Below, piece after piece: positions 17,162 through 62,989 of a stretch of 64,000 nt of DNA. The DNA lies in the IMG/VR virus record IMGVR_UViG_3300044613_001789, positions 1-64,000 of that record; one strand, written 5' to 3'. The notes under the pieces were generated by a model. The model was not told the DNA's origin. It worked only from the letters and a program-made list of their open reading frames with translations, and ran no database searches. Positions within the stretch are counted from its first letter, which is position 1. Each line of letters opens with the position of its first letter. The position numbers were made by a program, and so were the translations under genes. Origin of the DNA: a virus.

Positions 17162-17206
17162 AGCATACGGCGGGACTCGAACCCGCCGCTAACCGGCTTG
17201 TATGCT
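17162..17206 (-). other. tRNA-like minihelix (acceptor stem plus T arm)
   Basis: Read leftward: a 7-nt strand AGCATAC (17206-17200), a 12-nt linker, a T arm GGCGGG-TTCGAGT-CCCGCC (17187-17169), then GTATGCT (17168-17162), which pairs perfectly with the first strand. The TTCGAGT loop is the canonical tRNA T loop. No D arm or anticodon arm is present. The element overlaps the TAG of the upstream gene by 2 nt. It could be an RNase P or RNase Z processing signal, a relic of a tRNA, or an attachment-site core copied from a host tRNA 3' half. Confidence 0.55.
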
Positions 17207-17474
17207 ATACAATCCAATCGGCATAAGCGCCGACGCATCCATCCCGCCAACAATAATCGGAGCCCGCCCAGCTATCAACGGGCATTCCTTGGATTCCAAG
17301 AGCTTTCTTGATTCGTCGGCTTACGGTTCTATCGCTTGCGGTTGTAGGCACTACAACCGTGCGACGGCGCACCCAACAGTAGTTGCCACTCCAAGAGCCC
17401 CCTTCGTTCCAAAGGTCAGTACATTCGGCACGAATGAAGGCAATTGGGGTACTTTGTTCGCAGATCATTATCAT
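17205..17474 (-). CDS. Hypothetical protein (89 aa)
   Basis: Starts MIMICEQSTPIAFIRAECTD with an internal alternative ATG two codons later. Contains SDRTVSRRIKKALGIQG and a C-terminal Trp/Cys-rich segment (GSDYCWRDGCVGAYADW) recurrent in small phage proteins of unknown function. Overlaps the upstream gene by 4 bp; its stop lies in the tRNA-like element. Confidence 0.6.
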   Translation of the reverse strand: MIMICEQSTPIAFIRAECTDLWNEGGSWSGNYCWVRRRTVVVPTTASDRTVSRRIKKALGIQGMPVDSWAGSDYCWRDGCVGAYADWIV

Positions 17475-17719
17475 TTTCGGTTACTTTCTTGGAGTTCAGC
17501 CATTATGTCGGCCAATTGGTTATCTAGTTCCGGATAGCTATTCCCATACAATTGCACAAATAAGCTGGGGTACAATTCAAAAACCGCAATCGCTTTGGTA
17601 TCGGCCAACAATCGATTCAGGCCAAATCTATTCCGTAGGTCACATACGTCAAGACGTAGGATAGGCATTCCGCCTATGCCTATATCTTCATTCGTGGCAT
17701 ACCATATTTCTCCGTTCAT
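17471..17719 (-). CDS. Hypothetical protein, first gene of the leftward operon
   Basis: The 82-residue product begins MNGEIWYATNEDIGIGGMP. Its Shine-Dalgarno GGAG (17731-17734) is the 3' arm of a small hairpin CTCCA/TGGAG (17731-17742), so initiation may be repressed when this folds. Directly upstream is the terminator of the large structured RNA. No family recognised. Confidence 0.6.
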   Translation of the reverse strand: MNGEIWYATNEDIGIGGMPILRLDVCDLRNRFGLNRLLADTKAIAVFELYPSLFVQLYGNSYPELDNQLADIMAELQESNRK

Positions 17720-17748
17720 TATTTACAATTCTCCAGTTGGAGTAAACG

Positions 17749-17777
17749 AAAAAAGGGAGCCAACAATTGGCTCCCTT
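17749..17777 (-). terminator. Strong intrinsic terminator, leftward
   Basis: An 11-bp perfect stem AAGGGAGCCAA/TTGGCTCCCTT (17753-17763 with 17767-17777) with a 3-nt loop, followed on the minus strand by six T (complement of 17749-17754). It ends a transcript coming from 18.5 kb that contains no protein gene, which is the main evidence for a separate RNA gene there. Confidence 0.8.
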
Positions 17778-18555
17778 GAAACCGACAATCTAGCATTGCA
17801 CTAGAAAGGAGCGGTCTAAACTGAATCGGATTAACTAATTCCTATCGTCTAGATTCTCATATCGGTGGGTTGTTTTGTATTTCGTAGTCTCTATTCCTAT
17901 CGCCCATTCTGGGTTAGCAAACTGCTAACAATTCCTAGTTGCTAGCCATTACTTTGTTTGCTGTCATTTCCTTAATTCGATAGTTGGAGTCATTTTCGCG
18001 GACTCCACAATACTTTCCCTATAGCTCTATTGTGGTGACATTGCCATATCGTAAGGTAGTCCCCTAAGAAAGGTTTGCTACGATATCGCCCACAATCGCT
18101 AACTAGGTTATCCGTTCCCAAAATACGGCAGAACGAACAACCGAGAAACTATTGTTTCGCGACTAACGGGAGTGGACTACTTTTGAAGGTAATCCTATCG
18201 ACCCTCCCGATAGATTAGACGATATTGCTATTCGTCATTCCCCAACCAGTATATGGGGATTAGTGGCTATCCAAATTGTCAAAGATCGGACGGTTTACCA
18301 ATACAGCCAACTATTCGGTTGGGTAATACGGTGGGGTTGTTTCCCATGCGTAGGGTATCGGTAAACCAGGAATGGCGGACTAGGCCGGATGCGTAAGCAG
18401 TCGAAAGCGACTCCTATAACGAGTAATCGGTATATCGGAGATACTGGAAACCGCTTCCCGTATCCTAGGGCCTTTAGGCCCTTCGTCGCCTAAAGGCGAC
18501 CCGGTTTCCATCAGCTTCTCAGCCGGTTTCCACCGCGTCACCGTTTCCCGGCGAC
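17749..18555 (-). ncRNA. Large structured non-coding RNA, about 800 nt
   Basis: No convincing coding frame exists on either strand. Read leftward, the region contains many perfect helices, nested and adjacent: 18445-18453/18502-18510 (9 bp) enclosing hairpins 18467-18482 and 18485-18500; 18292-18299/18360-18367 (8 bp); 18307-18311/18318-18322; 18195-18200/18208-18213; 18239-18244/18254-18259; 18029-18035/18090-18096 enclosing 18046-18053/18079-18086; 17985-17991/18001-18007; 17913-17919/17923-17929. On the minus strand two 5' hairpins have GNRA-type loops (GGAA near 18530, GAGA near 18517). A promoter precedes it and a terminator ends it. Size and phage context recall the large 'ornate' phage RNAs GOLLD and ROOL, but I cannot show homology. 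It could instead be a giant leader for the downstream operon. Confidence 0.65.
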
Positions 18556-18561
18556 GTATGC

Positions 18562-18590
18562 ATGATATCGGCAGCCACTAGCCAAAGCAA
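18562..18590 (-). promoter_or_regulatory. Promoter of the large RNA
   Basis: On the minus strand, TTGCTT (18590-18585), a 17-bp spacer and TATCAT (18567-18562) followed by GC. The expected start is near 18555. The rightward promoter at 19398-19426 has nearly the same hexamers (TTGCAT, 17 bp, TATCAT). Confidence 0.55.
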
Positions 18591-18646
18591 TAGCCAATAT
18601 CCTAGAATTCTGCCAAGAATTACCAAAATAAGGCTCTGGACCAACA

Positions 18647-18678
18647 AAAACACTAGGAAACAATCTTCCCAGTGTTTT
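18647..18678. terminator. Bidirectional terminator upstream of the large RNA
   Basis: AAAACACT/AGTGTTTT (18647-18654 with 18671-18678) with an inner GG/CC pair. T-rich tracts follow on both strands (TTTTCT rightward, TTTTTG leftward). It would insulate the RNA promoter from transcription arriving from the right. Confidence 0.5.
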
Positions 18679-18746
18679 CTAAGATTCCCAGTACCATTCC
18701 TCACTAGACACTTAGTATTTGCGAAAGGGCTTAGAGGCCAAAAACC

Positions 18747-18771
18747 TAAGTCTTTACTACATAAAGACTTA
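18747..18771. repeat. Inverted repeat TAAGTCTTT/AAAGACTTA
   Basis: A perfect 9-bp stem with a 7-nt loop. On the minus strand the sequence GGTTTTTGG follows, so it might act as a weak leftward terminator in addition to the one at 18647-18678. Confidence 0.4.
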
Positions 18772-18812
18772 CGAAAAACGAGAAATAAAAATACCGGTCA
18801 AGGGGTAGCCTA

Positions 18813-18956
18813 GGCCTGCATAGCAGGCCTAGGCATAGAGGGCCTGCATAGCAGGCCTAGGCATAGAGGGCCTGCATAGCAGGCCTAGGCATAGAGGGCC
18901 TGCATAGCAGGCCTAGGCATAGAGGGCCTGCATAGCAGGCCTAGGCATAGCAGGCC
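18813..18956. repeat. Five tandem copies of a 28-bp palindromic unit
   Basis: Four identical 28-bp units (starting 18813, 18841, 18869, 18897) and a fifth (18925) that diverges in its last two bases, then a partial copy. Each unit contains the hairpin GGCCTGC-ATA-GCAGGCC and the palindrome GCCTAGGC. There are no spacers, so it is not a CRISPR array. An iteron-type replication or partition site is possible. It lies 220 bp upstream of the RNA promoter. Confidence 0.85.
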
Positions 18957-19397
18957 ACATGGTAACCGAACTTAAGGTGCAAGGGAGTTAGGCAGATGCT
19001 GCATTCGTAGGCAAGGGGGGTCATATTAGCCGGGCTTATATCCGGCTTGCCGGATGGGCGGATGGTTCAGACCCCCTAATATTTTTATCAAAATATTAGA
19101 AACACCGGCTCCTTGGACGGCTCCGCCGTCCTGGATACCGGCTTTCGGGACCGCTTCGCGGTCAGGTGATACCGACTCGTCTACCATCCACAAACCTATT
19201 ACCGTCTCGTTTGAAGCCGAATACGAGCCACAAATGTCCAGTTTTAGGCTTTACGGTGTAGAATCTTCCATTATTTTTTTATATTTAGAAAAATGAAAAG
19301 TGCCGAAATTGCAGGGATTATCACTCCCCACTCCTATGTCCGGTAGCCCTAGAACGCATTCTGCGTTAAGGCGAAAAGTACGCCGTAATTAGAATAC
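18957..19397. other. Non-coding block with strong hairpins
   Basis: No gene is visible in these 440 bases. Features seen: GGGGGTC/GACCCCC (19016-19022 with 19070-19076) enclosing ATCCGGC-TT-GCCGGAT (19040-19055); an AT-only-core stem CTAATATTTT/AAAATATTAG (19076-19085 with 19090-19099); GGACGGC-TCC-GCCGTCC (19115-19131); GACCGC-TTC-GCGGTC (19149-19163); and a run of seven T near 19275. The mixture of GC hairpins and an AT stem beside tandem repeats would fit an origin region, but this is speculative. Confidence 0.45.
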
Positions 19398-19426
19398 TTG
19401 CATCAGTCGCCGGTAGTAGTTATCAT
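19398..19426 (+). promoter_or_regulatory. Promoter directly abutting the start codon at 19433
   Basis: TTGCAT (19398-19403), 17-bp spacer, TATCAT (19421-19426); an overlapping CATAATGC starts at 19424. With the TATCAT hexamer the transcript would start at 19433, the A of the ATG, leaving no leader and no Shine-Dalgarno site. Confidence 0.55.
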
Positions 19427-19432
19427 AATGCT

Positions 19433-20170
19433 ATGAGCACTTCAATCAGCGACTATACGGCTTTCAAGCAGGCGTGCTTGACTGCGGACCTGAACACCTT
19501 CAAGCAGCACCCGGATATCGTTCCGATATTCGAGCATACGTCTGCCGAGCAAGGAGAAGCGTATCTCCAGGTAATCAGGGAGCGGTATCCGCTCCTGCTG
19601 GCCGCCCTACCTAGACTGGTAGTCAATGATGAGATTGGCGGAGCCAATCGCTGTATCACCCTCAAGGATGGCCCTAGCGTGAGCCCTAGCACGCTCCGGT
19701 ACGTCAAGGTACTAGGAGACTTGATCTACGCTGGGCTAGCGTCAGGAGACGCTATAGTGGAGATTGGAGGGGGTTACGGTGGCCAAGCATTGGTCATCCG
19801 AAATAAGATACTCTGGCAGAGTTATACCATTTTTGATTTACCGGAAGCCGGATCGCTCCAGGAGCGATACTTAGCCGAGCACGACTTGACGGTAGAACAT
19901 GGAGAATTGTTCGTCGGCAGCCGGGTTACTGATTGGGACTTCTGCATTAGCAACTATGCATTCTCCGAATGCAATAAGCAGATGCAGGATTGGTACTTGG
20001 AGCACGTAATCCTGAAGTCGAAGAAGGGTTATATGACCTGTAACTTCATCAGCAGCCAGTTTGGGGTCGATAGCTATTCGCAGGAGCAGCTACTTTCCCT
20101 TATCCCGAATTCCTGGCTAGAAGCGGAGAATCCGCTAACGAGCCCCGCTAACGTCGTCATCCGTTGGTAG
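19433..20170 (+). CDS. Sugar O-methyltransferase-like protein
   Basis: A 245-residue protein with the AdoMet-binding signature AIVEIGGGYGGQALVI followed by YTIFDLPEAGSLQERYL and ISNYAFSECN. This order is that of the putative sugar O-methyltransferase (NanM-like) family found in polysaccharide clusters. It probably methylates a glycan of the virion or host. Its likely promoter makes a leaderless mRNA. The 3' end overlaps the convergent gene by 36 bp. Confidence 0.7.
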   Translation: MSTSISDYTAFKQACLTADLNTFKQHPDIVPIFEHTSAEQGEAYLQVIRERYPLLLAALPRLVVNDEIGGANRCITLKDGPSVSPSTLRYVKVLGDLIYAGLASGDAIVEIGGGYGGQALVIRNKILWQSYTIFDLPEAGSLQERYLAEHDLTVEHGELFVGSRVTDWDFCISNYAFSECNKQMQDWYLEHVILKSKKGYMTCNFISSQFGVDSYSQEQLLSLIPNSWLEAENPLTSPANVVIRW

Positions 20171-32230: not shown

Positions 32231-32781
32231 AATATTTGCTACTTTTCCTTTGTCTGCTGTCGGTAGGATGCATTCCTGTTGTTGCCGACAACCCGCTCGT
32301 CCTAGACGAGCCTATTGTTCTGACTTCCGATACGCTGGTTGCTCCTGAAGTTACCCCGCAAGTTACCCCGCAAGTGGAGCCGCCTAAATCCAAAGTAGAG
32401 CCGGTAGTCGTTAAGCCTGCTTACCGTTGGACGTATCCGGGCGACCTGGGTACACATCTACGAAGTGTACACGGAGTAGATGTAATCGGTATGTCGCGAA
32501 GCGAGATGCTGCAAATACACGACGATCTCCACAATTCGCAGCTAGCAGTAAAAGCCCCGGCAGCCGAGGAATATATCGTCATCCAGTATACAATAGACTC
32601 TTGCGGTTGGTGTAAGTATGACGAGAAGAACATATTCCCTAAGTGGGCAGCCCATGGGTGGAAGTTCCAAAAAGTCAACGAAACAGCTAACCCGCGAGGC
32701 GTTTACCCTCGCTATGAGATCCGGTGGGTAGGCGGTAAGACGGCGACACACTCAGGCTCTTTGAGCACCTGGAAGAACTAA
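32227..32781 (+). CDS. Lipoprotein with thioredoxin-like CxxC domain
   Basis: ATGA-coupled to the protease gene. The N-terminus MKYLLLFLCLLSVGC is a lipoprotein-type signal with Cys15 as the likely lipidated residue (lipobox slightly atypical). A Pro/Val linker follows with a duplicated VTPQ. Residues about 114-170 look like a thioredoxin fold: YIVIQYTIDSCGWCKYDE with Cys126-x-x-Cys129, then GWKFQKVNE. It would act outside the cytoplasm in thiol-disulfide exchange, possibly keeping the neighbouring cysteine protease reduced. Confidence 0.7.
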   Translation: MKYLLLFLCLLSVGCIPVVADNPLVLDEPIVLTSDTLVAPEVTPQVTPQVEPPKSKVEPVVVKPAYRWTYPGDLGTHLRSVHGVDVIGMSRSEMLQIHDDLHNSQLAVKAPAAEEYIVIQYTIDSCGWCKYDEKNIFPKWAAHGWKFQKVNETANPRGVYPRYEIRWVGGKTATHSGSLSTWKN

Positions 32782-42423: not shown

Positions 42424-42998
42424 TGGGAACGAAGCGATGTTGCTGCGGGTGTCCGCTAATCACTAAGCCGTGGAGACGGGCTAGCCTCAACTTTTTAGGA
42501 ATGGATTTCGAAGTGGAATTTCCAGAAACCCCAGATGAGGCTTGCTGTCAGCAAGAAATAAGCGTTTGTAAGGATATCGGGGAGCCGGTGCTGCTCGGAG
42601 ACTGCTACATAGATGCCTATGATTGGACGCTCATTAATCCCGGTGACTACCTAAGCATGACTGGTCCTTGGTGCGATTGGCCTTTAGTTGTTCTGCCGCT
42701 TACGGCAGTGGACTCCTGCTGTAATTCGTCTAACTATAGGATTGAATGGAAAGGGAGAAATAGGATCAGATTTTGGGTTTGGAAACAGGCTTATGTTAGA
42801 TTCACTATCTGCTATTGCCGAACGGCAGATGGTAAGCCGGGCTACCGGATGAAGGTGGAGATAAATTGGCGTATAACTTTAATCCAAAATCTTTCCCGGT
42901 TAATTAAGTACCGGCACCGTAAGTACACTCGCGTTTGTTGTGAATCCGGTACCACAGACGGTCCTGAACCTACCACCAACGCTCCTGAGCCACAATAA
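42423..42998 (+). CDS. Cysteine-rich tail-associated protein (191 aa)
   Basis: The ATG at 42423 overlaps the upstream TAA (TAATG). Begins MGTKRCCCGCPLITK with four cysteines in the first ten residues; further pairs at EACCQQEISVCKD and VDSCCNSSNYR. Ends in a Thr/Pro tail (GPEPTTNAPEPQ), like its neighbours. Likely a virion surface component. Confidence 0.6.
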   Translation: MGTKRCCCGCPLITKPWRRASLNFLGMDFEVEFPETPDEACCQQEISVCKDIGEPVLLGDCYIDAYDWTLINPGDYLSMTGPWCDWPLVVLPLTAVDSCCNSSNYRIEWKGRNRIRFWVWKQAYVRFTICYCRTADGKPGYRMKVEINWRITLIQNLSRLIKYRHRKYTRVCCESGTTDGPEPTTNAPEPQ

Positions 42999-43006
42999 GG
43001 TAATAA

Positions 43007-50808: not shown

Positions 50809-52026
50809 TTACTCCACAGTAAATTTGTCAATTTTAGTAAAACAACCGGCAGGATTTGCACCTGCGAATTTAGTCTTGTCGATCTGCCTAATGCTTCCGG
50901 CTTCGGTTGTTGGAACCCACCCACACCGTTCACACGGTGCCGGTTTACTTAATTCCCTGACCGATTCCTCGGTCTTCTGAATCCTACCTGCTAAAACCGT
51001 CAGATCGATTTCCTGGATCGTTTCGATGATCCCTTTGAGCACCGAAATCTTTTGTTTGGACGGAATTACTATAGCGTCCAATCCGGCCAACGTATCCAGA
51101 ATTTGGCGATTTTTCGACATAATTTGGATGCCGGCTTCCTGGTGGTCGGATGCGATGACGGCTAATCTGTCTCGGTAGCTTCGCACCCCGATAAACCCCT
51201 CTAGCTTCGCGATTCTCGCGTCCAGAGACGGCAGTGAGTCAAAGGCCGCCTGGGCGGCCAGAATCGATTCTAGCCCCTGTTTTGTGGCTTTACGGGCATC
51301 TACCGCTGCGGCATACGCTCGGATGGAATCCAGGCACTGGATCTTGGCGTTTAGGAGCCGTATCGACCACGCATAAGTCTCGCATTCGGTATTCGCCGCT
51401 GCTAAATCGGCACGCCGATTACTTAGCTCCGACTCTTGTTGCGCCAAATCCTGTAATTGCTTTAGCAATTCCTGCTTCCGGTCTAGGTTCTGGTACGGCA
51501 GCAAGTCAATCTTGTATCGGATTAGCTTATGTTGTTCGCTGTCAATTAGAGTTCCTAATTTGGCAGACTGCGTCCGGAGCCAACTAATCGACTTGTCGAT
51601 GTCGTCGAGGGCTACTATGCGGTTTATTTCCTTAGCTAACTGCCCGCCAGTCAACGCTAACAGAAATACGGAATCCATTTGACTCTGAAAATTAACGTCA
51701 GTTAGCATTAGCCGATCTGATACTGCTTTCGGCTGCTGCTTGGCACAGGCTAAGAACTTTTCTTGTCCTACCTTATAGCCGTATTCCTTGGCGTTCTTGA
51801 ATCTGATGACTCCGCCGGCTTTCGTCAGGACGCCCACTTGGAGCGAGGTTTCGCCGTGGGTCACTAATCCGCTTGAGGATTCGTGCAACGCAATGAACCT
51901 CAAAGCACGAATGATAGCTGATTTCCCGGTGTCGGAGGCACCGACCACTACGTTAAGTCCTGGGTTTACCGTCAGCAACAAATCCCGGTGAGCCTGAAAA
52001 TTGACTAGTTTGATCTGGCGAATCAT
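50809..52026 (-). CDS. Rad50/SbcC-type ATPase, N-terminal half with zinc hook
   Basis: 405 residues: MIRQIKLVNFQAHRDLLL, Walker A VVGASDTGKSAIIRAL (29-36), then a long coiled coil, ending in a zinc-hook-like Cys365-x-x-Cys368 in PAPCERCGWVP. The chain stops shortly after the hook; the returning coiled coil and Walker B lie in separate genes. It should dimerise through the hook and combine with the C-terminal half and the SbcD-like nuclease. Confidence 0.8.
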   Translation of the reverse strand: MIRQIKLVNFQAHRDLLLTVNPGLNVVVGASDTGKSAIIRALRFIALHESSSGLVTHGETSLQVGVLTKAGGVIRFKNAKEYGYKVGQEKFLACAKQQPKAVSDRLMLTDVNFQSQMDSVFLLALTGGQLAKEINRIVALDDIDKSISWLRTQSAKLGTLIDSEQHKLIRYKIDLLPYQNLDRKQELLKQLQDLAQQESELSNRRADLAAANTECETYAWSIRLLNAKIQCLDSIRAYAAAVDARKATKQGLESILAAQAAFDSLPSLDARIAKLEGFIGVRSYRDRLAVIASDHQEAGIQIMSKNRQILDTLAGLDAIVIPSKQKISVLKGIIETIQEIDLTVLAGRIQKTEESVRELSKPAPCERCGWVPTTEAGSIRQIDKTKFAGANPAGCFTKIDKFTVE

Positions 52027-53243
52027 AGGATTTCTCCATATTGATAAAAGCTCTGCTTCGGTAGGTTCCGTGTCCAGAAAGCCCGTTGCAGACCAGCCTC
52101 ATACATCTGCAAGATCCCCAGATCCAATTCGGCTAGCGAATCGATGCCGTTGTACAGCATCAACTCCCGGCGGTTGGCCAAGTGTACCTTGTTCAGGCCA
52201 TAGGTGTCAGAGTCCTCAAAATACTTATCCACGTTGTGGGCGTAAAACGCCTGTCCCAGGCGAGCAAACGCCTGAAACTTCAAACCGGCTACGCCCGGTT
52301 GCGGGTCGTGCATGTGGGCAGCGATCACGTTATCCCATACCCAGTTCTTAACCGTTACCCCGTATTTCGTTCTCGACCATCGGTCTTCGAACTTCAAGTT
52401 AGCCGCTATCTTCCGGCAGTCGGAAGTCAGGTACGCCTTCCAGGCGTCTACTAGAGCATCCGTCATACTGAATGCCACGCACCTAGTCTCGTCTCCGACG
52501 AGCCACGCTACCGAAGCCGTATAGACTTTAGATGCCTGCCTCTCTGGCTTCAGGCTATTGGTTTCGTAGTCGAATGCCGTAAGCGGCGATAAGCTCGCTT
52601 CGGCGAGCAGTTCCTTGATCTCGGCTATCGACTCTGGCATCTGAACCATCTTGGCGTAGTCAGCTATGTGGTCGCCGTAAGGGCGACCCTCAGAATTAAA
52701 CGCCTTTAGCATTTGGCGGGTATGGTAGATTTCGCTGACGGCTGGATTCTTACCTAACGCTATTCTGCCAATAGGGAATACCCAGGCATTCAGTTCCTTG
52801 CTAGGAATCCCTTGCCAAAACCATCGATCTGGCATCTCGGCATTCTGATCCCATAGCCAATGGATGACGGATTTCAATGCCGTCTTCCCCCAGATCAATA
52901 CCTTCTCCGGTTGTAGGCGTTTGATCTCGGAGATTAGCAGTGGTTGGCAATGTTTCCAGGGTTCTTCTCCCGCCGTGTCGGATTCGGAGTAGCAGGCTTG
53001 GGCAGGAACGATCACTAATTCGCGTAGCGAATGTCCGATCTTTCGCAGGTTGCCTTCTATCCGTTCGTATTGTGCCGGTGAGATGTTGCGGTCAGCACTA
53101 GGCTTATCGACCACTATGACGGCTTTAGCCGTCCCTGGTCTGGCTTTCTGCATCCCGTGGGTGCATTTGCGGAGCAGGCCACATGCTCCGCATGCCGGGG
53201 CTATCGGTTTCGATTTGGTGTGTTGGGTGAAAAATGTGAACAT
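52023..53243 (-). CDS. Uracil-DNA-glycosylase-like domain fused to 3'-5' exonuclease
   Basis: 406 residues. N-terminal about 190: UDG-superfamily fold with early cysteines (CGACGLLRKCTHG) as in iron-sulfur family 4, PEKVLIWGKTALKSV and VFPIGRIAL; the usual motif residues for catalysis are not clear. C-terminal part: DnaQ-like proofreading exonuclease of family A polymerases with ExoI LTAFDYETNSL, ExoII KIAANLKFEDRWS and ExoIII LYNGIDSLAELDL. The polymerase at 61592-62989 lacks an exonuclease, so this protein probably supplies proofreading in trans. Confidence 0.75.
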   Translation of the reverse strand: MFTFFTQHTKSKPIAPACGACGLLRKCTHGMQKARPGTAKAVIVVDKPSADRNISPAQYERIEGNLRKIGHSLRELVIVPAQACYSESDTAGEEPWKHCQPLLISEIKRLQPEKVLIWGKTALKSVIHWLWDQNAEMPDRWFWQGIPSKELNAWVFPIGRIALGKNPAVSEIYHTRQMLKAFNSEGRPYGDHIADYAKMVQMPESIAEIKELLAEASLSPLTAFDYETNSLKPERQASKVYTASVAWLVGDETRCVAFSMTDALVDAWKAYLTSDCRKIAANLKFEDRWSRTKYGVTVKNWVWDNVIAAHMHDPQPGVAGLKFQAFARLGQAFYAHNVDKYFEDSDTYGLNKVHLANRRELMLYNGIDSLAELDLGILQMYEAGLQRAFWTRNLPKQSFYQYGEIL

Positions 53244-61377: not shown

Positions 61378-61595
61378 GGCAGCTCTCTATGCTTGCGTAG
61401 AAGTTTCACGGCATTGTATATGACTTTGAGATCCTCCCCTCGCATGGCCATTCCTGTGTTTACACAGGGCAGTTCCAGCATATCCTGTAAGGCATCCAAG
61501 AGACGCGGAGCGTCTTTTTTTAACTCCTCCGTGTTCGTTGGTCCGAAGCAGACGGTATACGGTTCTAGGTTACAGGTTATTTTTGTTGGCATCAC
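61374..61595 (-). CDS. Hypothetical protein (73 aa)
   Basis: MMPTKITCNLEPYTVCFG, then helical (LLDALQDMLELP ... NAVKLLRKHRELP). ATGA-type overlaps with the polymerase and the kinase. Unknown function. Confidence 0.55.
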   Translation of the reverse strand: MMPTKITCNLEPYTVCFGPTNTEELKKDAPRLLDALQDMLELPCVNTGMAMRGEDLKVIYNAVKLLRKHRELP

Positions 61596-62989
61596 TTCTC
61601 ATCTCCTCTGTAAGCTACTTTGTCGCTCCAACTAACGTCGCTGACTTCTACTTCTACCTTTAGATCCAGAATCAACCAAGGCCATTTTTTCCTGAGCTTG
61701 GTTGTCATAATCTCGCTGGCCATGCCAACATATTCATGCAACTCTGCTCTCGGCACTAGGGCCAAGAGCGAATCGTGGATCTCCATAAACGGACGCGATA
61801 GCATCTTCCTCTCCTCAATCTCCTTCTGGATATCGATAATGGATTGGAGTAGGCAGTGAAAACTACTCCCCTGAACCGGGGCATTGATGATGAAATTCCG
61901 TGTCTCTACGCCCCGCCAAAGGAATCCGGTCAAGTTGTAGAAGTACCCCTTAGCCAGATACTCCCGATACCAGTCTTTCTTCCACTGTGCATACGTCCGA
62001 TACCGTTTGCCCCAGAAGTCGTCTTCGACCGACTTGATATGCGAGACGAAGGTGTCACTGTCCATGTTAGCCACCCATTTCTGTTCGCCTTCGTCGAACT
62101 CAATGCCCAGTCGCTTGATGCCCACCGACGAGAGATGCTCCAGCATCCCAGTCTTCCCTGCCGTCTTCCATAACCTCCTAGCCACATCAACGTAGTAGTT
62201 GCCGTAGAACCAACCGAACACTGCATCTCCTTTGGCTGCGGTACGCAGCGTTTTGGCTAATGCCTTGTTCTCGGTAGCCCAGTTATCATCATATTTGAAG
62301 CACTGCTTCGCGGTAGCCGAATGCATATCGAAACCACTTTCGAGGTTATCGATCATCGTTGTGTCTTTGTGGTAGCAGGCGGCTACGTGAACTTCTAGAG
62401 CCGAGTAGTCGATTTCGACTATGTACCACCCTTCCGGGGGGCATACGCATCCTTTGACGTACTTAGTGACTGACTTGTTACGGGAAGGCAGATTGTTGAG
62501 GTTCGGGCTGTCTGCGGAACCTCTGAATGATTTCACGTTGTGTAGGTTCAAGAACCCGTGCACCCGCCCCTTAACGCAATCGCGTTCTAGGGCATCGAGG
62601 TAGGTTCCTTTTAGCTTGTAGAGTTTTTGCAACTGCAAAAACTCAGCGACGTAGTCAGAGTCGAGAAGTAGCAATGCATCCTCATCGAGGATGTATTTCT
62701 TAGACTTTTTTGACTTCTTAGCTCCCGGTAGCTTTAGAAAATCATACAAAACCCATCCCAGTTGATCTCTGGAGTTCAGGTTGCATTCCGCACCATAGCG
62801 TCTCTGCTGGATTCCGTAATACTCATGCTTACGGAGCTTGGATTCGCGTTCGCGAATTTCAGCCTGGACTTCGCGTTGGGCTACGGCAAGTTTGTCTACA
62901 CTGACCGGCAACCCTTCGGATTCTATTTTCGAAAGGGCGATGGCCCCTTGCGTGAACAAGCGGTATGCGCTTCGCGTTGCTGGTTTCAT
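61592..62989 (-). CDS. Family A DNA polymerase, polymerase domain only
   Basis: 465 residues. Motif A YIVEIDYSALEVHVAA, motif B (O helix) TLRTAAKGDAVFGWFYGN and motif C FMEIHDSLLALV are all present. The N-terminal 100 residues correspond to the thumb start; no exonuclease or 5'-nuclease domain is included. Proofreading and flap removal are probably provided by the 52023-53243 and 56376-57218 proteins. The SPO1-type spacing between Lys and Phe in motif B is a known variant. Confidence 0.9.
   Translation of the reverse strand: MKPATRSAYRLFTQGAIALSKIESEGLPVSVDKLAVAQREVQAEIRERESKLRKHEYYGIQQRRYGAECNLNSRDQLGWVLYDFLKLPGAKKSKKSKKYILDEDALLLLDSDYVAEFLQLQKLYKLKGTYLDALERDCVKGRVHGFLNLHNVKSFRGSADSPNLNNLPSRNKSVTKYVKGCVCPPEGWYIVEIDYSALEVHVAACYHKDTTMIDNLESGFDMHSATAKQCFKYDDNWATENKALAKTLRTAAKGDAVFGWFYGNYYVDVARRLWKTAGKTGMLEHLSSVGIKRLGIEFDEGEQKWVANMDSDTFVSHIKSVEDDFWGKRYRTYAQWKKDWYREYLAKGYFYNLTGFLWRGVETRNFIINAPVQGSSFHCLLQSIIDIQKEIEERKMLSRPFMEIHDSLLALVPRAELHEYVGMASEIMTTKLRKKWPWLILDLKVEVEVSDVSWSDKVAYRGDEK

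Follow-up and report, generated by a model that had tools for sequence, protein, structure and literature searches.

A large structured noncoding RNA beside a dif-like site in tailed phages with probable planctomycete hosts

The window, i.e. the whole stretch of 64,000 nucleotides analysed here, belongs to a phage record of 64,201 bases with genes for terminase, portal and tail, and the same phage also encodes its own DNA polymerase, clamp, clamp loader and UvsX-like recombinase. No tRNA was detected by ARAGORN in the 64-kb window. As a separate observation, the family A DNA polymerase appears to be split, with 52023-53240 and 61592-62989 matching different parts of phrog_17 (PHROG). Codon scoring delimits a gene-poor stretch of 1.7 kb (17720-19432) between leftward small genes, which end at 17719, and a rightward gene that starts at 19433. 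Two other gaps of the window, 32231-32780 and 42424-43006, were considered as noncoding regions and rejected, both being open frames. The layout found in the phages at the gene-poor stretch follows the order XerCD dif-like site, tandem hairpin array and structured RNA. The features of the locus are given below, where L003 and L004 designate two diverged phages carrying homologues of the RNA and L052 a fourth, very diverged lineage of which about half is covered.

17205-17474, minus strand: downstream gene of unknown function, 89 aa, which the three phages retain with 89-95% identity between the proteins
17471-17719, minus strand: first leftward gene past the terminator, 82 aa, function unknown; L003 and L004 have other genes in its place
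17749-17777, minus strand: intrinsic terminator and RNA 3' end, with an 11-bp stem, a 3-nt loop and a T run; one compensated change (AA/TT to TA/TA) in L003 and L004
17749-18640, minus strand: well-supported part of the structured noncoding RNA (z -10.9, 25 double changes, homologues in L003 and L004)
17784-18280, minus strand: conserved 3' domain, closed by the long-range helix 15 (18271-18280/17784-17793); identity of 82-96% per 100 nt
18007-18155, minus strand: central domain, helices 22-27, including helix 26 with five double changes
18291-18368, minus strand: 5'-domain arm, helices 12, 13 and 14, with seven double changes (three, three and one)
18641-18801, minus strand: probable continuation of the RNA at its 5' end; its start is close to a TTGAC motif shared by all four lineages
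18747-18771, minus strand: hairpin 3' of the array, found in all lineages; its stem is largely different in L052 yet still pairs
18813-18956, no strand assigned: tandem array of 28-bp hairpin units; other phages have, at the same position, units of different sequence and length
18961-18971, minus strand: right-half remnant of the dif-like site (GTTCGGTTACC); the site is intact in L001, L003, L004 and L052
19016-19099, no strand assigned: block of conserved structure that lies upstream of the dif position and comprises AGGGGGTC...GACCCCCCT and a hairpin at 19076-19099

The minus strand of 17749-18640 has a minimum free energy of -317.2 kcal/mol, compared with -258 +/- 5.4 for dinucleotide shuffles (z -10.9), and the plus strand of the same region gives a z of -6.8; the numerous helices reported in a preliminary description of this DNA are thus beyond chance. 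Homologues of the RNA are present in L003, with 85% identity in the best aligned piece, and in L004, with 80%, the remaining copies of the region being nearly identical, and the lineages available for comparison were three full-length ones (window, L003 and L004) and half of a fourth (L052). RNAalifold on the three-lineage alignment gave a consensus of 270 pairs in 35 helices, in which pairing holds in 95.8% of the alignment cells. Double-sided changes with pairing kept were counted at 25 pairs, compared with 10.1 +/- 2.5 in shuffled alignments (none of 500 reached this value) and with 1-5 in slid-partner controls, so that covariation, which the preliminary description had proposed to look for, is indeed found in homologous phage contigs. 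It is clearest in helix 26 (18043-18055/18078-18089), where five successive pairs are replaced on both sides in the relatives; together with helix 25, it makes up the nested example singled out beforehand (18029-18035/18090-18096 around 18046-18053/18079-18086). A covariance model, R1, was built on the central domain (18007-18155). Most core pairs are invariant because just three full-length lineages, two of them mutually close in the core, could be compared, and such pairs are uninformative on covariation in either direction. Immediately before the terminator, the molecule is closed by two long-range helices, 1 and 15, and identity amounts to 0.82-0.96 in the 3' part of the RNA and 0.57-0.87 in its faster-changing 5' part. 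Loops of GNRA type, said to be confined to the leftward strand, proved a weak argument, as they occur in few hairpin loops of the conserved structure. We are highly confident that this locus encodes a genuine RNA (or other nucleic acid) of conserved structure.

Regarding the strand, one-sided changes in the 203 pairs predicted for both strands left a G-U on the minus strand in 15 cases and on the plus strand in 7, which is a modest bias, and the intrinsic terminator is oriented leftward (minus). The strong leftward terminator claimed at the outset is present at 17753-17777 with its T run and one compensated pair. A leftward structured RNA ending at this terminator is well supported as a prediction from covariation, strand preference and conservation.

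The RNA had been assigned to 17749-18555 (about 800 nt), which is too short, as conserved structure reaches upstream to about 18800. The block 18702-18801 is 86-87% identical to L003 and L004, and the diverged L052, whose terminase is 70% identical, displays the same layout over the 5' extension and also folds strongly (z -7.8). A possible long-range pairing between AATACYAAG and TTGGTAATT, read by eye, is found in all four lineages. The promoter proposed as the RNA's own, TTGCTT-17-TATCAT at about 18562-18590, falls inside the least conserved block of the conserved RNA and is loosely kept in the relatives, and the bidirectional terminator proposed as an upstream insulator, a hairpin at about 18650-18679, fails to form in L003 and L004. 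Since conservation resumes beyond the promoter-like block and the second hairpin is lost in the relatives, the 5' end of the RNA would be placed upstream of 18640; its length is at least 0.9 kb and would probably reach about 1.05 kb. The preliminary description had overlooked the greater length of the RNA, the array of hairpins and the dif-like site that lie 5' of it, and the leftward operon close behind the terminator.

On the 3' side, the first leftward gene, led by GGAG, begins about 20-35 nt past the terminator in the three phages and is a different one in each, encoding 82 aa in the window, 67 aa in L003 and 89 aa in L004. The 89-aa protein of the gene kept in all three (17205-17474) also occurs in the distant phages L020 and L021 at 36-37% and is without known family; structure comparison of this protein gave no convincing fold match. 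As there is no space for a separate promoter past the terminator, the leftward genes are probably reached by readthrough, and a leader or readthrough arrangement is possible in view of the short distance at which the operon begins. The RNA could then be a giant cis-acting leader whose fold sets termination or readthrough of the small leftward genes, by attenuation or processive antitermination, an alternative that we consider rather unlikely. The position of the gene and its GGAG directly behind the terminator in all three phages would agree with it, as would the conservation of the sequence directly past the terminator (CTCCAAYTGGAGAAT), but the immediate downstream gene is different in each phage and no conserved alternative antiterminator pairing was identified. 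To our knowledge, known attenuators are also far smaller than this RNA, which counts against a leader. The swapped downstream genes argue instead for an RNA retained for itself.

On the 5' side, the units of the array measure 28-29 bp, 38 bp in L052 and 17 bp in L129, and their sequences are unrelated while hairpins form in each. Several viral contigs were observed to stop at or near tandem hairpin arrays. An intact dif-like sequence, ACGTCYGATAATGTTTRTTATGTTCGG (first base T in L004), lies just 5' of the array in L001, L003, L004 and L052. The site, ACGTCCGATAATGTTTRTTATGTTCGG, is made of two inverted arms flanking about 6 bp, as expected of a dif, and we take it to resemble the dif of E. coli. 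In the window strain and in L016, whose locus is otherwise almost identical to that of L001, a 38-bp deletion has removed a segment that includes the dif core; as both retain the RNA, the RNA is independent of the core. A dif-like site followed by an array was also found in L129, and a dif-like site at the contig end in L133, the other end of which is ordinary coding sequence. Both contigs stop before any RNA, and a search through the L129 array for its missing RNA side returned nothing new. No tyrosine integrase was detected in six phage records.

An exact scan for the dif core through about 85,000 prokaryote genomes returned 34 places, 32 of them labelled planctomycete. With up to 3 mismatches, a dif-like match was present in 50 of the 58 Pirellulales genomes, exactly one copy being found in 48, compared with 2 genomes for a reversed-pattern control; a GC-skew sign change at the site was seen in one of five genomes. 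In a rumen Thermoguttaceae (L193, G013:C124, 1522-13941), a filamentous prophage with a Zot-like gene, a secretin gene and a weak G2P-like match lies between two direct dif copies 12.4 kb apart, and the dif-like site thus behaves as expected of a XerCD dif, which filamentous phages use for attachment. The core CCGATAATGTNTNTTATGTTCGG, carried by L001, L003, L004, L052, L129 and L132-L168, is a strong candidate for the dif site of Pirellulales planctomycetes on the basis of its sequence distribution; dif prediction had failed for Planctomycetes in a 2011 survey (PMC3025954). Four contigs, one viral from the rumen and three from genomes (L132, L138, L149 and L158), share the flank beside the dif core, and this common flank suggests another putative dif-integrating element. 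Because the dif-like site is almost confined to Planctomycetota, is usually present in single copy and flanks a filamentous prophage, the host of the phage is probably a planctomycete. Among 397 Pirellulales genomes, no homologue of the RNA was found by DNA search, and a covariance model gave one weak match (E 0.001 per genome), which was put down to chance since it falls within an oxidoreductase-like reading frame.

The linkage of a large structured phage RNA to a dif-like site is unusual. It may be envisaged that the site, the array and the RNA of about 1 kb form one element, through which an integrase-less tailed phage would exploit the XerCD and FtsK of its host with the giant RNA as regulator, although we regard this as improbable. 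Equally doubtful are the outcomes that might be linked to dif, namely integration at the host dif, dimer resolution or lysis timing, with an RNA timing recombination or division by analogy with Rcd. Rcd is a regulatory RNA of about 70 nt encoded within the cer site of ColE1, and the phage RNA is likewise encoded beside a XerCD site; unlike Rcd, it measures about 1 kb, lies outside the dif-like site and outlasts the loss of this site. The intact core that four phages (L001, L003, L004 and L052) carry immediately 5' of the array and the RNA, the sites of L129 and L133, the six records in which no integrase was detected and the filamentous prophage flanked by the same site would all be consistent with such an element. 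On the other hand, the window and L016 variants keep the RNA despite the lost core, no integrated RNA-carrying relative was found among the 397 Pirellulales genomes, and the L129 and L133 contigs stop short of any RNA.

The helices could also form as single-stranded DNA or cruciforms in a DNA-level element such as a replication origin or a packaging or recombination structure, as the adjoining palindromic arrays and dif-like site would allow and as compensatory change by itself, which cannot separate RNA from DNA, would permit; this is very unlikely given the directional terminator, the stronger folding and more numerous G-U changes of the minus strand, and long nested helices across 500 nt, which are typical of RNA. 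Finally, it is hardly credible that the structure is incidental to a coding sequence or to a decayed gene. The 47-aa plus-strand frame at 18075-18218, which is open in all three lineages, would speak for this, but it shows no codon-position bias in its changes and a poor codon score, and none of the four minus-strand frames of at least 25 aa is conserved, all being broken in relatives, which together with the poor codon scores over 17720-19432 agrees with the initial view that the region holds no convincing protein gene.

The RNA was also compared with known families. At the Rfam gathering score, no match was obtained in the window or five relatives, with GOLLD, ROOL, OLE, HEARO and group I and II introns included, and Rfam 15 at E up to 10 gave sub-threshold matches to unrelated families only and none to GOLLD. 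These model searches uphold the initial statement that the RNA can be assigned to neither GOLLD nor ROOL. A group I or II intron, considered as a candidate, was rejected as being without Rfam match. A search of a phage DNA collection gave no match, and scanning viral contigs for exact motifs from the RNA gave the same lineages and chance matches. Many broad terminase relatives have noncoding gaps upstream of the terminase, mostly with near-chance folding, and none of these gaps matched the RNA profile or model. No protein partner for the RNA was found.

As in GOLLD, the RNA is phage-encoded, exceeds 800 nt and combines an elaborate fold with a conserved 3' and a variable 5' region (GOLLD size and regions from PMC12286853). 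GOLLD, however, often lies near or contains phage tRNAs, whereas this RNA has no tRNA anywhere in 64 kb and adjoins a dif-like site and a hairpin array in a phage of probable planctomycete host. Like ROOL (PMC12286853), it is a large RNA from a phage or prophage that has neither a conserved ORF nor a known protein partner, but it is longer, has no tRNA island and matches no Rfam model. It is large and elaborate like OLE, which is bacterial and has known Oap partners, but it occurs in a phage and has no match to Rfam. The general features of large structured phage noncoding RNAs, i.e. a phage-encoded molecule with covarying structure, no ORF and a defined 3' end, are all present. The best reading is that of a large phage RNA of the GOLLD and ROOL kind which forms a separate new family, set apart by the Rfam models. 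A further trait of GOLLD is its homo-oligomeric RNA cage. Phage RNAs as large as GOLLD and ROOL can form RNA-only cages, the task of which is unknown (PMC12286853).

According to the explanation that we favour, the phage noncoding RNA would be transcribed leftward up to the terminator at 17749-17777, accumulate as a discrete molecule and act in trans through its fold, possibly as a scaffold or an RNA or RNP particle during infection, a role also proposed for GOLLD and ROOL; a fraction of the polymerases would continue past the terminator and transcribe the leftward operon. We place slightly better than even confidence in the trans-acting particle, and cage behaviour like that of GOLLD and ROOL may be envisaged by resemblance. 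The size of the RNA, its long-range closing helices, its slow 3' and fast 5' domains and the varying downstream genes favour a trans-acting structural RNA, which persists although the downstream gene differs in each phage and although the dif core is gone from the window strain. Directly observed at this locus are the structure with its compensatory changes, the terminator, the synteny and the lack of any conserved coding on the minus strand. That the RNA is expressed, where its 5' end lies, that it acts in trans and what it does at the molecular level are inferred.

Only a small number of RNA classes reach this size, and no task is known for those from phages, GOLLD and ROOL. An unrelated third family from another host phylum would help to show what such RNAs share, and its sequences are new material for folding in vitro and for cryo-EM. 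The candidate dif of Pirellulales, for its part, would fill a gap and offers a way of linking uncultured phages to planctomycete hosts.
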